A stretch of 64,000 nucleotides of DNA from Ignavibacteriota bacterium. GTDB lineage: Bacteria > Bacteroidota > Ignavibacteria > Ignavibacteriales > Melioribacteraceae. The position numbers were made by a program, and so were the translations under genes. The notes beneath the pieces are model-generated. The model was not told the DNA's origin. It saw only the letters and a list, made by a program, of their open reading frames with translations, and did no database searches. The stretch is from contig JABFGH010000009.1 of the NCBI GenBank assembly GCA_013112585.1, positions 62,001-126,000 of the forward strand. The letters run 5' to 3'. This document shows, in pieces, positions 2,271 to 11,978 of the stretch. Numbering within the stretch: position 1 is the stretch's first letter; each line of letters opens with the position of its first letter.

Positions 2271-3197
2271 ATGAAAAGTATTGAAATAAATAAACTAACA
2301 AAAAAATTCGGCGACTTTACTGCGGTTGATAATATTTCATTCGACGTGAAGAAGGGAGAAATATTTGGATTCCTCGGTGCAAACGGAGCCGGTAAATCTA
2401 TAACAATAAAAATGCTGTGCGGAATTTTAGAACCGACTTCCGGTGATGCTATTGTTGGCGGACACAGCATTGTTAAAGACCCTGATAAAGTAAAAATGCA
2501 TATCGGCTATATGTCGCAAAGGTTTTCACTTTATAATGATTTAACGGTTGAAGAAAACATAAACTTTTTCGGCGGGATTTATGGATTAGAAGGAAAGGAA
2601 TTTACCGATAGAAAAAATTGGGTTTTAGAAATAGCGAATCTGCAAGGAAAAGAAAAGTTATTAACTGAATCTTTACCAGGCGGCATAAAACAAAGGCTGG
2701 CATTGGGTACCGCGGTAATTCATAAACCGGGAATTGTTTTTCTGGATGAACCGACAAGCGGGGTCGATCCGATTTCACGTCGCGGATTTTGGGAATTGAT
2801 AAACGATCTATCCGACGAGGGAATAACGGTTTTTGTTACCACGCACTACTTAGAGGAAGCAGAGTTTTGCAACAATATTATTTTAATTAACGCAGGTAAA
2901 CTTATCGCTGAAGGTAATGCCAAAGAATTAAAAACAAATTATATAAAGAATACAATTTTAGAAGTCGAATGCGATAACGTTGTTGATGCTCTTGAAATTT
3001 TAGACAGACAAAGCTTTGTTGAAGAAACATCAATCTTCGGTAATACCATTCACATTAGCGTTGCAGAAAATTTCACGGATTATAAAATGATTTCATCCCT
3101 GTTAGCCGATAAACATTCAATCACCGTGAGTAAAATAACTAAAATCATTCCCACTCTTGAAGATGTATTTATTCATTTACTGGAGAAGAATAAATAA
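2271..3197 (+). CDS. ABC-2 type efflux transporter ATPase
   Basis: Second nucleotide-binding subunit of the exporter, corresponding to the second half of YbhF-like fusion ATPases. Walker A is GANGAGKSI (residues 36-44), with isoleucine where threonine is usual; the signature is LPGG instead of LSGG; Walker B FLDEPTSG and the H-loop histidine (TTHYLEEAE) are canonical. The C-terminal 70 residues form the extension ending in PTLEDVFIHLLE that is usual for this subfamily. Its stop overlaps the permease start (TAATG), so the two are translationally coupled. The deviations are complementary to those of the ATPase at position 2, suggesting a heterodimer with one degenerate ATP site. Confidence 0.95.
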   Translation: MKSIEINKLTKKFGDFTAVDNISFDVKKGEIFGFLGANGAGKSITIKMLCGILEPTSGDAIVGGHSIVKDPDKVKMHIGYMSQRFSLYNDLTVEENINFFGGIYGLEGKEFTDRKNWVLEIANLQGKEKLLTESLPGGIKQRLALGTAVIHKPGIVFLDEPTSGVDPISRRGFWELINDLSDEGITVFVTTHYLEEAEFCNNIILINAGKLIAEGNAKELKTNYIKNTILEVECDNVVDALEILDRQSFVEETSIFGNTIHISVAENFTDYKMISSLLADKHSITVSKITKIIPTLEDVFIHLLEKNK

Positions 3198-4324
3198 TGT
3201 ATTCAAGAATTAGAGCCATAGCGAAAAAAGAAATTAAACAGCTTATTCGAGATAAAAGAATGGTGTTTGTGCTTTTCTTTTTCCCGGTGTTTTTATTAGG
3301 CGTTTTCGGTTATGTGGTTGATTTTGATGTTCAGAATGTAAAGTTAGCCGTGCTGGATAATAGTAAATCAGAGACAAGCAGAGAGTTTGTAAACTCTTTA
3401 TCAAGCTCCGACTATTTTGATATAGTTTTGATAATTAAAAGTGAAAAAGAAATAAAAACCATACTGGATGAAAAAGAGGCTCAAGCAGTATTAGTTATTC
3501 CAAGCGAATTTGTGAGGAAACTTTATGGAAAAAAAGAAGAGGCAAGGCTTCAGTTTTTAATTGACGGAACTAATGGAAATACGGCGTCTATAATTCAAAA
3601 CTATGTTGCTTCTGCTGTTCAATCATTTAATGCAAAAATTCAAAAAGAGATGCTTGCACAAGCAGGTGCTAAATCATTTCAGCCAATTGCACTCGAGCCG
3701 ATCTTTATGTTCAACAAAGATCTAAAGTCAGCACGATTTTTAATTCCCGGTTTAATTGCCATGATATTAATTCTTGTCTCCGTAGTAAGCGTGTCTCTAT
3801 CTCTCGTTCGTGAAAAAGAGCGGGGAACGATTGAGCAGATTAATGTTTCATCGTTAAGCACGTTAGAACTGCTGATTGGTAAGGCAATGCCTTACGTTGT
3901 AATCTCCCTTATCAATGCGGCATTCATAATTTTTGCAGGCTATCTGCTTTTTGATGTTGCGGTAAAAGGGAGCTACATGCTTCTATTTATCAGCACATTA
4001 ATTTTCATTTTTTCATCGGTTAGTCTTGGTATTTTTATTTCTGTAGTGTCAGATTCACAGCAAGTAGCTTTTACTATGGCAACTTTCGCCACATTACTTC
4101 CTTCGTTAGTTTTATCCGGATTTATTTTTCCAATTGAAAGCATGCCTCCAATCATTCAAGCATTCACAAACATTACTCCGGCTAAATTTTTTATAGTTTC
4201 GCTTCGGGCAATTATGCTTCGTGGTGTGGGGCTTCCCATATTTTGGGAGCAGTTGGTTTATTTGCTTTTGTTTACTGTTTTGTTTTTAGGATTGGCAACG
4301 GTGATGGAGAAGAAAAGGAGTTAG
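3197..4324 (+). CDS. ABC-2 type permease
   Basis: Membrane subunit of the YbhS/YbhR type. One N-terminal membrane helix (about residues 22-42) is followed by a large extracytoplasmic domain (DNSKSETSREF, DGTNGNTASI) and about five C-terminal helices with the family phrase PGLIAMIL and the cytoplasmic REKERGTIEQI. Length is normal at 375 residues. It is about 30% similar by eye to the second permease at 4810, so the two probably form a heterodimer. The last codons and the TAG stop lie inside a GGAGTTA heptamer array. Confidence 0.94.
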   Translation: MYSRIRAIAKKEIKQLIRDKRMVFVLFFFPVFLLGVFGYVVDFDVQNVKLAVLDNSKSETSREFVNSLSSSDYFDIVLIIKSEKEIKTILDEKEAQAVLVIPSEFVRKLYGKKEEARLQFLIDGTNGNTASIIQNYVASAVQSFNAKIQKEMLAQAGAKSFQPIALEPIFMFNKDLKSARFLIPGLIAMILILVSVVSVSLSLVREKERGTIEQINVSSLSTLELLIGKAMPYVVISLINAAFIIFAGYLLFDVAVKGSYMLLFISTLIFIFSSVSLGIFISVVSDSQQVAFTMATFATLLPSLVLSGFIFPIESMPPIIQAFTNITPAKFFIVSLRAIMLRGVGLPIFWEQLVYLLLFTVLFLGLATVMEKKRS

Positions 4325-4355
4325 GAGTTAGGAGTTAGAAGTTAGGAGTTAGGAG
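4315..4355 (+). repeat. TTAGGAG heptamer array overlapping a stop codon
   Basis: Five exact-register 7-base units (4321-4355, four TTAGGAG and one TTAGAAG), preceded by a partial unit. The permease stop TAG at 4322-4324 is part of the first unit. Because the period is 7, the TAG in each unit falls in all three frames within 21 bases. Confidence 0.85.
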
Positions 4356-4368
4356 CTTGATTTATTTT

Positions 4369-4797
4369 GAATTCAGAATTAAGAATCCAGAATTAAGAAA
4401 TAAGAATAAAGGAAAACAACATTATGATAAAAGCAAAAGTATTTACAGACTTGATAGTTTGGCAAAAGGCGCACAAATTTGTACTACAGGTTTATAAATC
4501 GACAAAAGAATATCCCAAGGAAGAAATATACGGATTGACCTCACGGTTCAGGAGGGCAGCCGTTTCAATACCTGCTAATATTTCAGAAGGATTTAAGAAG
4601 AGAAGTAAACTTGATAAAGCTAGATATTTAAACATAGCTGAAGGATCACTTGAAGAATGTAGATATTACATAATCTTATCAAATGATTTGGGGTATTATA
4701 AAAAAGATGATCTAAATAAATTATTGGAAGAAGCAAGCAAACTTCTTTCAGCTTATAGAAATAAAATTGTGAATTCTTAATTCTGAATTCTGAATTC
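4369..4797 (+). mobile_element. IVS-like cassette: four-helix-bundle gene between inverted repeats
   Basis: The gene at 4424-4780 is bracketed by inverted repeats. The left copy 4369-4385 is perfectly complementary over 17 bases to the right copy 4774-4790, and both extend as degenerate 7-base GAATTCA/TGAATTC units (left to 4399, right to 4797). The right repeat contains the stop codon. This mirrors 23S rRNA intervening sequences, which carry this protein family inside a stem, but here the host sequence is an ABC transporter operon. Whether the cassette moves or is cut out of the mRNA is inference. Confidence 0.55.
4424..4780 (+). CDS. four-helix bundle protein (23S rRNA intervening-sequence / S23 family)
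   Basis: A 118-residue protein of the four-helix bundle family found in 23S rRNA intervening sequences and related to the Avd protein of diversity-generating retroelements. Typical blocks are LIVWQKAHKF at the N-terminus, TSRFRRAAVSIPANISEG in the middle and RYLNIAEGSLEECRYYIILS after it. Its biochemical role is unknown. It separates the two permease genes of an otherwise continuous operon and is read in the same direction. The stop codon lies inside the right flanking inverted repeat. There is no 23S rRNA in the window. Confidence 0.9.
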   Translation: MIKAKVFTDLIVWQKAHKFVLQVYKSTKEYPKEEIYGLTSRFRRAAVSIPANISEGFKKRSKLDKARYLNIAEGSLEECRYYIILSNDLGYYKKDDLNKLLEEASKLLSAYRNKIVNS

Positions 4798-4809
4798 TCT
4801 ACTAATAGA

Positions 4810-5940
4810 ATGAAAACAATACTACAAATAATAAAAAAAGAATTTCTACAATTTAGCCGCGACCCTAAAATGTTTTTGATGGTATTGGTTGCGCCGGTTG
4901 TACAGCTTATTCTTTTAGGATACGCCGCAAATTTAGATGTGGACATAGTTCACACTGCACTGCTTGATTATGATAAAACAGAAACGAGCAGAGAATTTAT
5001 TCAAAAGTTTGAAGGCTCCGGATATTTTGAATTTGATTATTATGTTAACAGCTATGATGAACTGCAGGAAAAAATTGACGCAGCGGAAGTTATTCTTGGA
5101 TTAGTAATTCCAAAAGATTTTGAAAGAAATATTGTACGAAGAGAGTCTGCCCCGGTGCAGGCAATATTCGACGGCTCCGATGGAAATACTGCTTCAATTG
5201 CGGCAGGATATGTTCAGGGAGTTACAGTCGATTACAGCAAGGAGATCATCACTGAATTTTTAGATCGTACAGGAAGAAAAATTCAGCCGGCAGGAACAGT
5301 TAGTACTGAAACGAGAGTTTGGTACAACCCGGAATTGAAAACGCGTGTATTTATGGTACCGGGAATTGTTGGTCTGCTGCTTATGATCATAACATTAATT
5401 TTAACTTCACTTGCAATAGTAAAAGAAAAAGAAATCGGCACACTGGAACAATTAATTGTAACTCCAATTAAATCTCACCAATTGCTTATCGGCAAACTGG
5501 TTCCCTTTGCCATACTTGGCTTTCTTTCAGTAATCATTATTATAAGTGCAATGTCGCTTATTTTTGATATTGCTGTTCGAGGAAGCACTACATTTCTTTT
5601 CTTTGCTACTTTCATATACATCCTATCCACACTTGGCTTGGGATTGTTTGTCTCAACAATTTCAAAAACGCAGCAGCAGGCAATGATGCTTGCAATTTTT
5701 GTTATCATGCTTCCGATGGTTTACCTGTCGGGTTTTGCATTCCCAATCGAAAATATGCCTGAGACCATTCAATATATAACTTATCTGATTCCGCTTAGAT
5801 ATTTTATGACAATTATTAGGGGCGTAATTTTAAAAGGAATTGGGTTTGCCGATCTTTGGCAGGAGATGCTTGTGCTTGCATTTATCGGTATCAGTATTCT
5901 AGCATTAAGTGCAAATCGTTTTAGAAAAAAATTAGATTGA
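4810..5940 (+). CDS. ABC-2 type permease
   Basis: Second membrane subunit of the exporter, 376 residues, with the same architecture as the permease at 3197: one N-terminal helix, an extracytoplasmic domain (DYDKTETSREF, DGSDGNTASIAAGYVQG) and a five-helix C-terminal block starting at VPGIVGLLLMI, with the KEKEIGTLEQL cytoplasmic motif. It follows the four-helix-bundle cassette by 29 bases and should be in the same transcript unless the cassette interferes. It is the last gene of the operon; the next gene has its own 108-base upstream region. Confidence 0.94.
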   Translation: MKTILQIIKKEFLQFSRDPKMFLMVLVAPVVQLILLGYAANLDVDIVHTALLDYDKTETSREFIQKFEGSGYFEFDYYVNSYDELQEKIDAAEVILGLVIPKDFERNIVRRESAPVQAIFDGSDGNTASIAAGYVQGVTVDYSKEIITEFLDRTGRKIQPAGTVSTETRVWYNPELKTRVFMVPGIVGLLLMIITLILTSLAIVKEKEIGTLEQLIVTPIKSHQLLIGKLVPFAILGFLSVIIIISAMSLIFDIAVRGSTTFLFFATFIYILSTLGLGLFVSTISKTQQQAMMLAIFVIMLPMVYLSGFAFPIENMPETIQYITYLIPLRYFMTIIRGVILKGIGFADLWQEMLVLAFIGISILALSANRFRKKLD

Positions 5941-7712: not shown

Positions 7713-8023
7713 CTGCATGATTGAATGGGTGCATGGCTGAAGAGGAGTATTGTTAAATTTTTGAGTGATATAAAATATATTTATTTGCAACTGCTAGTCC
7801 AACAGGGATTTTGTCATTTCGAATTGCGTTTTGTAGATGGGAAACCTCATTATATTCCTAGCAATAGATTTCTCAATCGTGCCGGAAAAATAAACGGTAC
7901 CACTATCGAAAAGACAATATTAAATTATCGATTACCGATTTTCGATTATCGCCCAAACCCTCTCAACATTTCAAAGTAAAAATTGTATATTTCGTTTCAT
8001 CAATAACAAATATTTTAGATGTA
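7713..8023. repeat. intergenic region with octamer and heptamer arrays
   Basis: At 7714-7740 there are three TGCATGNN-type octamers, the same family as at 53334. At 7926-7958 a degenerate (A)TTATCG/ATTACCG array precedes the next gene, the same family as at 53714. The long open frame across this region (7725-7979) is built from these arrays and shows no conserved motif, so I do not call it a gene. Confidence 0.6.
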
Positions 8024-11700: not shown

Positions 11701-11978
11701 TTTAACCCGAATTATGCATTAGAAGTAATTTATAAAACCTAATTAAAAATTGTCATTTTAATTGCACCGTCATTCCTGCCCGTCCGGCAGGCGGGTATGA
11801 CGGTGGTAAAAAATAAGAAATATGAGGGGACTTTAGCCCGCCTTTGCCGGTGGGCAGGCCCAAAACCTTTTGGGTTAAAACCCAATGTACTTGTTTGCTC
11901 AATCCCGCCTGCCGGACGGGCAGGATTCACGGAGCTAAAGCACCGTGCAATTTTCTCTTTTGCATAATTTGGGTTTAA
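11701..11978. mobile_element. MITE-like element, copy 1
   Basis: A 278-bp non-coding element with imperfect 18-bp terminal inverted repeats: TTTAACCCGAATTATGCA at the left and TGCATAATTTGGGTTTAA at the right. Inside are several small palindromes (CCTGCCCGTCCGGCAGGCGGG, GCACCGTGC-like). A second copy lies at 24927-25182 in the same orientation, with the same order of internal segments. It fills the gap 11634-12029, which holds no gene. Confidence 0.8.

Follow-up and report, generated by a model that had tools for sequence, protein, structure and literature searches.

The closest described counterparts of the element reported here are the intervening sequences (IVSs) of 23S rRNA in Coxiella and Leptospira. 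According to the available passages of PMC4990558, the Coxiella IVS bears the tandem heptamers GACAGAT and GACAGAA ahead of its S23 gene, which is read in the sense orientation, and its 28-bp terminal stem is cut by RNase III in vitro. The same passages argue that Coxiella probably does not make S23 and that the protein is decaying, and report that E. coli expressing the Coxiella IVS or its protein has no growth defect (PMC4990558). In a search of the open-access full-text literature, with subscription journals outside its scope, the available part of that paper (PMC4990558) supplied the sole link of the family to heptad repeats, and no tie was found between the family, PF05635, and heptad arms outside rRNA. 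Heptamer repeats have been described separately in cyanobacteria, Xanthomonas and Beggiatoaceae (PMC4692102, PMC4679880), among them GGGAATC in Xanthomonas and TAACTGA in Beggiatoaceae. As presented in the available portions of these two papers, they resemble the tracts described below in being intergenic 7-nt tandem repeats, arranged as inverted pairs in Xanthomonas and of unexplained origin; those portions name no gene associated with the heptamers or lying beside them, whereas here the arms bracket a PF05635 gene.

The gene in question lies in the window (the whole 64-kb stretch of Ignavibacteriota DNA analysed), within an ABC efflux operon having the order TolC-like gene, ATPase, permease, cassette, permease. 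Profile matches identify the ABC ATPase gene (2271-3197) and the two ABC-2 permease genes that flank the cassette upstream (3197-4324) and downstream (4810-5940), all on the + strand. Between the permeases, ORF calling, profile matches and AlphaFold place a four-helix-bundle gene of 118 aa (4424-4780, + strand), whose product matches PF05635 (23S_rRNA_IVP, or S23) at 125.8 bits (1e-36; cut-off 33.8) and TIGR02436 at 2.1e-33, bearing out the first-pass annotation, which had recognised an S23/IVS gene between two permeases. The left arm (4369-4408, + strand) is built from the units TCAGAAT, TAAGAAT, CCAGAAT and TAAGAAA, and the right arm (4765-4798, + strand) from the complementary units ATTCTGA and ATTCTTA, with the TAA stop codon of the gene (4778-4780) inside it; the earlier description of arms in 7-base units that include the stop codon was thus accurate. 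Its inverted repeats are also real, but their perfect part is 18 bp long (4369-4386 with 4773-4790) instead of 17, being made of the overlapping 17-mer pairs 4369/4774 and 4370/4773, and it is contained in longer 33-nt arms at 85%. Perfect 17-mer inverted pairs spaced 20-450 nt apart occur at two places in the 64-kb window (the cassette and 11774/11904), and at none in 30 first-order Markov copies of it. The second place is a 22-nt perfect inverted repeat at 11774-11925, with arms about 108 nt apart. By sequence, a further tract of the same unit type as the arms (TTAGGAG/TTAGAAG, about 4316-4354, + strand) overlaps the upstream permease gene at its final codons and stop (4322-4324), and a gene-less hairpin of like 7-nt units (2205-2270, + strand; fold z -3.58) occupies the junction between the TolC-like and ATPase genes. 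Inspection by eye also picked out short intergenic tracts at 7731-7760 and 7920-7975 that resemble degenerate heptad or related repeats.

Set beside the 23S IVSs of Coxiella and Leptospira, as these appear in the available passages of PMC4990558, the window cassette has a gene of the same protein family, held in the loop of a stem formed by terminal inverted repeats (in the window a predicted stem) and sense to the host transcript, which in the window is judged from the strand of the neighbours; with the Coxiella IVS in particular it shares tandem heptamers in the 5' arm. It differs in lying between protein genes, where the IVSs occupy helix 9, 25 or 45 of 23S rRNA. At Rfam gathering cut-offs there was no match in the whole 64-kb window, and among the 80 named loci of the cross-phylum set described below (the best 80 of at least 557) Rfam detected no rRNA. 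Because the rRNA location is lacking, the window unit is not strictly a 23S IVS, although the anatomy of an IVS is present. Insertions in the rRNA genes of CPR bacteria are reportedly the subject of one paper, which may bear on the link to rRNA.

In the predicted RNA fold of the cassette, a closing stem of 24 bp, 18 of them perfect, holds the gene in its loop; 4369-4386 pairs with 4773-4790, and the closing stem is kept in the centroid structure. The fold is moderately better than those of shuffled sequences (z -2.54, with 1/100 shuffles as good). From this model we infer that the stem would form in vivo and be a target for RNase III. Both neighbours of the window gene lie on its own strand, so that by the predicted transcript its ORF is sense. 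The same arrangement was found in 91/99 loci (of 106 intact), compared to 43/69 control genes, for which gene calling was similar to that for the loci, not identical.

The family is common in these bacteria: it is present in 36/38 genomes, this one counted, and this genome has 10 PF05635 genes in 4.94 Mb, one of which (L003) ends about 0.2 kb before the window start, upstream of the window's first ABC gene. Mirrored flanks were sought with a score that compares the 120 nt upstream of a gene with the reverse complement of the 140 nt around and after its stop, the threshold being the 95th percentile of mispaired flanks. The loci of this genome and its order furnished 75 usable cases of 79, four being short, broken or at a contig end and dropped; the named cross-phylum set, the best 80 of at least 557 confirmed stretches in a scan with the window's subfamily, furnished 74 (6 dropped), and by that design consists of close relatives of the window protein. 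The sets overlap slightly (L190 comes from G027 and L222 from G019). As controls, 79 genes of 90-180 aa were taken from a 400-kb sample of this genome. The search for PF05635 genes with flanking inverted repeats in other places, which the first-pass annotation had proposed, was successful: 56/75 loci of the genome and order exceeded the threshold (8/10 in this genome) against 4/79 controls, and 18/30 phylum-level loci against 4/300 mispaired flanks. Among the cross-phylum loci (the best 80 of at least 557) 48/74 passed, but so did 188/400 mispaired flanks, because these loci share one unit. Below the threshold were 19/75, 12/30 and 26/74 loci, respectively, the last again among the best 80 of at least 557.

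The arms have a characteristic period of 7 nt. Strong tracts, defined by 19 of 28 positions, were present upstream in 33/75 and downstream in 38/75 loci of the genome and order, compared with 2/79 and 1/79 controls; at the same loci period 14 came next (19 and 21), period 8 was slight (8 and 5), and the rest gave little. The corresponding counts were no more than 9/30 upstream and 8/30 downstream at phylum level, and 48/74 upstream and 61/74 downstream in the cross-phylum set (best 80 of at least 557). With a looser cut of 18 of 28 on either side, at least one 7-nt arm was found at 8/10 loci of this genome, 47/64 of the order, 18/30 of the phylum, 68/71 of the cross-phylum set (best 80 of at least 557) and 20/40 further phylum loci, compared with 6/79 controls. 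Tracts were concentrated in the flanks next to the gene; by comparison, few occurred in windows of these loci at a distance of over 250 nt (66/150 vs 3/300 and 16/60 vs 2/120, and in two more sets 82/146 vs 10/292 and 27/80 vs 1/160). Gene-less tracts also occur: 400 kb free of PF05635 genes (L100-L119) contained 26 of period 7, of which 23 were mostly intergenic, and 0-4 for each of the periods 5, 6 and 8-11. Several of these gene-less tracts resemble units of resident cassettes. The GxxExxY genes (PF13366) were considered as carriers of the same heptads and rejected, there being no 7-nt period and a weak 9-10-nt one across 28 loci. Thirty such loci (L040-L069) were fetched, L067 being left out as broken and L049, also broken, from the period count; inverted arms above threshold, with CACAGAG-like units, were present in 22/29, compared with 28/200 mispaired.

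The heptad unit goes with the protein subfamily. In a comparison that kept 197 of 216 loci (less than 90% alike), 151 of them with a measurable unit, heptad similarity in the best phase correlated with protein identity (Spearman 0.514, reached by 0/1000 permutations); the correlation was 0.161 for the 77 loci remaining without the window subfamily, again reached by 0/1000 permutations, and heptad similarity showed a step at about 50% protein identity. The pattern NNHAGRA, which was derived from the window's subfamily itself, fits 65/72 loci of that subfamily and 7/77 others. Another subfamily, that of L034, has the unit GTTCGAC. Among the named loci (the best 80 of at least 557), those that fit span all 15 phylum groups, the labels being taken from the records of metagenomic bins that may hold foreign contigs. 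Within the subfamily, pairs at 60-70% protein identity have a heptad identity of 0.62, when their fourfold sites agree at 0.31 (chance 0.265), so that the unit has been kept though silent sites are nearly saturated; for reference, heptad identity is 0.435 between the window subfamily and other subfamilies, and 0.73 within one locus. The subfamily tree, in which many forks are unresolved, mixes phyla, with 29 changes among 15 groups (minimum 14, shuffled mean 53.3), and this fits horizontal transfer, without proving it. A common weak frame, AGT with variable positions, runs through all subfamilies, at 1.93 bits with the window subfamily excluded, whereas 60 null runs averaged 1.59 and peaked at 1.71 bits. 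At the nuoC-nuoD and dehydrogenase-like junctions, inspection by eye found units that vary among genomes and arms of one copy that are alike, so that both arms of a copy seem to change together. The association of heptad and protein could come from co-inheritance of a unit, and not from binding. Of the two Coxiella heptamers, GACAGAA is a unit in 4/72 loci of the window subfamily and fits NNHAGRA, and GACAGAT is one base off. On these sequence comparisons we read the rRNA IVSs as probably occupying one niche within a larger family of cassettes bracketed by heptads.

The first-pass annotation had expected the operon to be found both with and without the cassette, and this was the case: of 29 other genomes compared at the junction between the permeases, 26 have no gene there. 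By eye, empty gaps there run from 0 to about 110 nt (111 nt in L090) when the evident GTG or TTG starts are adopted. In the nearest relative, G019, whose permease is 71% identical, the PF05635 gene at this junction is truncated. A GIY-YIG-like gene within inverted repeats of another kind occupies it in G009, the contig of G010 ends there, and the sequence from G001 is a distant match (31%) that may be a paralogue. Such GIY-YIG-like genes, recognised by eye in L078 (G009) and L099 (G001), lie in the inverted repeats GTCATTCCGGC.. and GTCTTTGCGAGG.., in the same operon type, and L083 (G022) has in the same operon, upstream of a permease, a RAYT-like gene with AACCTTGAAGGTT palindromes (by eye; a Y1_Tnp match is found there). 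At the TolC-ATPase junction a PF05635 cassette is present in G019, G023, G027 and G010, where this genome holds the gene-less hairpin 2205-2270. G036 has a gene-less hairpin there too, resembling by eye the arms of GxxExxY genes; in G035 a PF05635 cassette follows the TolC-like gene at a contig end, and in at least nine relatives the junction is shorter than 50 nt (by eye).

An insertion within a coding sequence was found in G095, whose DNA methyltransferase gene (PF01555) contains arms and a PF05635 gene. With 5 of 10 loci aligned, the insert site corresponds in L328, L330 and L333 to about 8 residues, the adjoining 123 residues being 85, 76 and 68% identical, and in a fourth aligned orthologue, L329 (87%), to a loop of about 30 residues. 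The reading frame of the host methyltransferase is uninterrupted by the insert, which it crosses in frame +2 relative to the PF05635 gene. A fully open +2 frame was found in 5/221 intact loci (L163, L178, L186, L225 and L245) and a fully open +1 frame in none; at L163 (G095), L178 (G059) and L186 (G080) a host gene with DNA-methyltransferase domains reads through the cassette. On sequence comparison, the G095 methyltransferase appears to be the cleanest case of insertion. At 70/96 scorable loci (of 176) the heptads begin no more than 20 nt from the upstream stop codon; nothing is drawn from this as to placement at stop codons, because heptads often contain them.

The proposal of a mobile IVS-like element outside rRNA fared unevenly. 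The cassette does lie outside rRNA; movement at the present day is not indicated, since for 26/28 copies at four shared junctions (nuoC-nuoD, TolC-ATPase, dehydrogenase-like and thiolase-like, labelled by eye) the nearest relative sits at the same junction, which implies that much of the inheritance is vertical. Considered as an autonomous element, the unit is present and absent at orthologous sites and brings no DNA-cutting enzyme of its own, its one gene matching PF05635 and, below cut-off, Avd-like models. Its boundary is masked by the tandem arms, which would hide any target-site duplication. In the RAYT/REP-REPIN systems, a small protein gene is flanked by its own inverted repeats and accompanied by many gene-less repeat copies, and REPs outnumber RAYTs. 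The PF05635 cassettes are similar in that the gene is flanked by its own inverted repeats and gene-less heptad tracts outnumber genes, and differ in that the window protein has no HUH/Y1 domain by profile and structure searches and the arms are 7-nt tandems, not the single palindrome of a REP.

Several candidate movers were rejected. A resident reverse transcriptase does not seem to be required, RVT_1 matches being confined to 12/38 genomes (this one among the 38); none was found in this genome (10 copies) or in G014 (31), G036 (19), G030 (16) or G022 (15), and a lost or distant reverse transcriptase may still have acted. A Y1/RAYT transposase as common mover is disfavoured because, although 33/38 genomes match Y1_Tnp, G003, G004, G005 and G028 have PF05635 without it, an exclusion weakened by the incompleteness of G003 (88% complete) and G004 (81%). 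As regards phages as carriers, the window protein had no match in the phage collection searched; 27 plasmid records, mostly cyanobacterial, do match it. At L212, a group II intron match (3571-3657) lies about 0.7 kb from the PF05635 gene.

The window protein is predicted by AlphaFold to be a four-helix bundle (pLDDT 95.8), and a Foldseek search with the predicted model matched it to Xanthomonas XCC0516 (PDB 2gsc; TM up to 0.91) and Bacteroides BT_0352 (PDB 2rld; TM 0.74-0.78). Profile and structure searches detected no nuclease, ligase or transposase domain in it. The four-helix-bundle fold is common to the window protein and Avd of diversity-generating retroelements (DGRs), the model matching 8ube and 4dwl at TM 0.76-0.77 with Foldseek E of about 0.1, and Avd in the DGR ribonucleoprotein at TM 0.74-0.77 with 10-11% identity and Foldseek E 0.09-0.65. 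The two differ in that the window protein scores 30.6 bits with the Avd model, under its curated cut-off of 80, and the host genome has no RVT_1 match; on both counts the assignment of the window protein as a DGR accessory Avd was rejected. Among DGR-linked genes, the accessible part of one survey gives PF05635 as the most frequent Pfam (PMC10053308).

The arms are part of the unit: mirrored 7-nt tandems, present or absent with it at orthologous sites and matched to the protein subfamily. We consider it probable that the left heptad arm, the PF05635 gene and the right heptad arm together constitute a discrete insertion cassette, of one kind with the 23S IVSs that encode S23, lying in sense in the operon. 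The protein, a four-helix bundle, or a ring formed from it, would recognise its own heptads, in the manner of a RAYT with its REPs or a transposase with its ends, and gene-less heptad hairpins would be relics or progeny of the unit that are not autonomous. At the RNA level the arms would pair, with the gene in the loop, to give a stem that RNase III could cut, and the stem and its cutting would allow the unit to be tolerated at low cost in an rRNA or mRNA transcript. The enzyme that cuts and joins DNA would come from outside the cassette, and a resident reverse transcriptase would not be needed to keep it.

Other readings of the same observations have to be set against this. The heptad tracts might be host-wide intergenic tandem repeats with a mechanism of their own, among which PF05635 genes merely tend to lie; gene-less tracts do outnumber the genes, at 26 in 400 kb as opposed to 10 genes in 4.94 Mb, and the available portions of the reports on cyanobacteria, Xanthomonas and Beggiatoaceae describe heptamers with no such gene named (PMC4692102, PMC4679880). 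We regard this as rather improbable: within a given locus the tracts crowd around the gene at a much higher density than elsewhere, the unit follows the protein subfamily across phyla, and the two arms match each other and not random partners. An involvement of reverse transcriptase, with the protein working as Avd does and the cassette moving as RNA, would draw on the Avd-like fold (TM 0.74-0.77, 10-11% identity, Foldseek E 0.09-0.65), on the prominence of PF05635 as commonest Pfam in the accessible part of a survey of DGR-linked genes (PMC10053308), and on the sense orientation in operons. Such a partnership appears very doubtful, given that RVT_1 was found in just 12/38 genomes and neither here nor in the copy-rich G014, G036, G030 and G022.

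The predicted closing stem of 24 bp, 18 of them perfect, together with the sense orientation and lasting presence of cassettes at shared junctions, also invites an explanation in terms of benefit to the host, in which RNase III would cut at the stem and the protein would bind RNA as a regulator, fixing how much upstream operon product is made relative to downstream. This develops the idea in the first-pass annotation that the cassette insulates the parts of the operon mRNA from one another. It is unlikely, if somewhat less so than the two preceding alternatives: presence among relatives is patchy, a truncated gene and gene-less hairpins are found at such junctions, one cassette lies within a coding sequence, and, in the available passages of PMC4990558, neither the IVS nor its protein caused a growth defect when expressed in E. 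coli.

A broader proposal is that a protein-repeat code operates, with widespread and mostly non-rRNA mobile cassettes, lacking a nuclease of their own, in which each subfamily would recognise its own heptad, rRNA IVSs would be one niche, and the cassettes would have seeded the unexplained heptamer repeats of many genomes; we put the chances for and against this code as even. Until now S23/IVP genes have been seen mainly as curious passengers in fragmented rRNA, and heptamer repeats as intergenic curiosities. Should they prove to be connected, this very common family of proteins would gain a cognate nucleic acid that can be tested immediately, the rRNA intervening sequences would be a single instance of a more general cassette, and a unit that is mobile but has no evident DNA-cutting enzyme would call for a mover.
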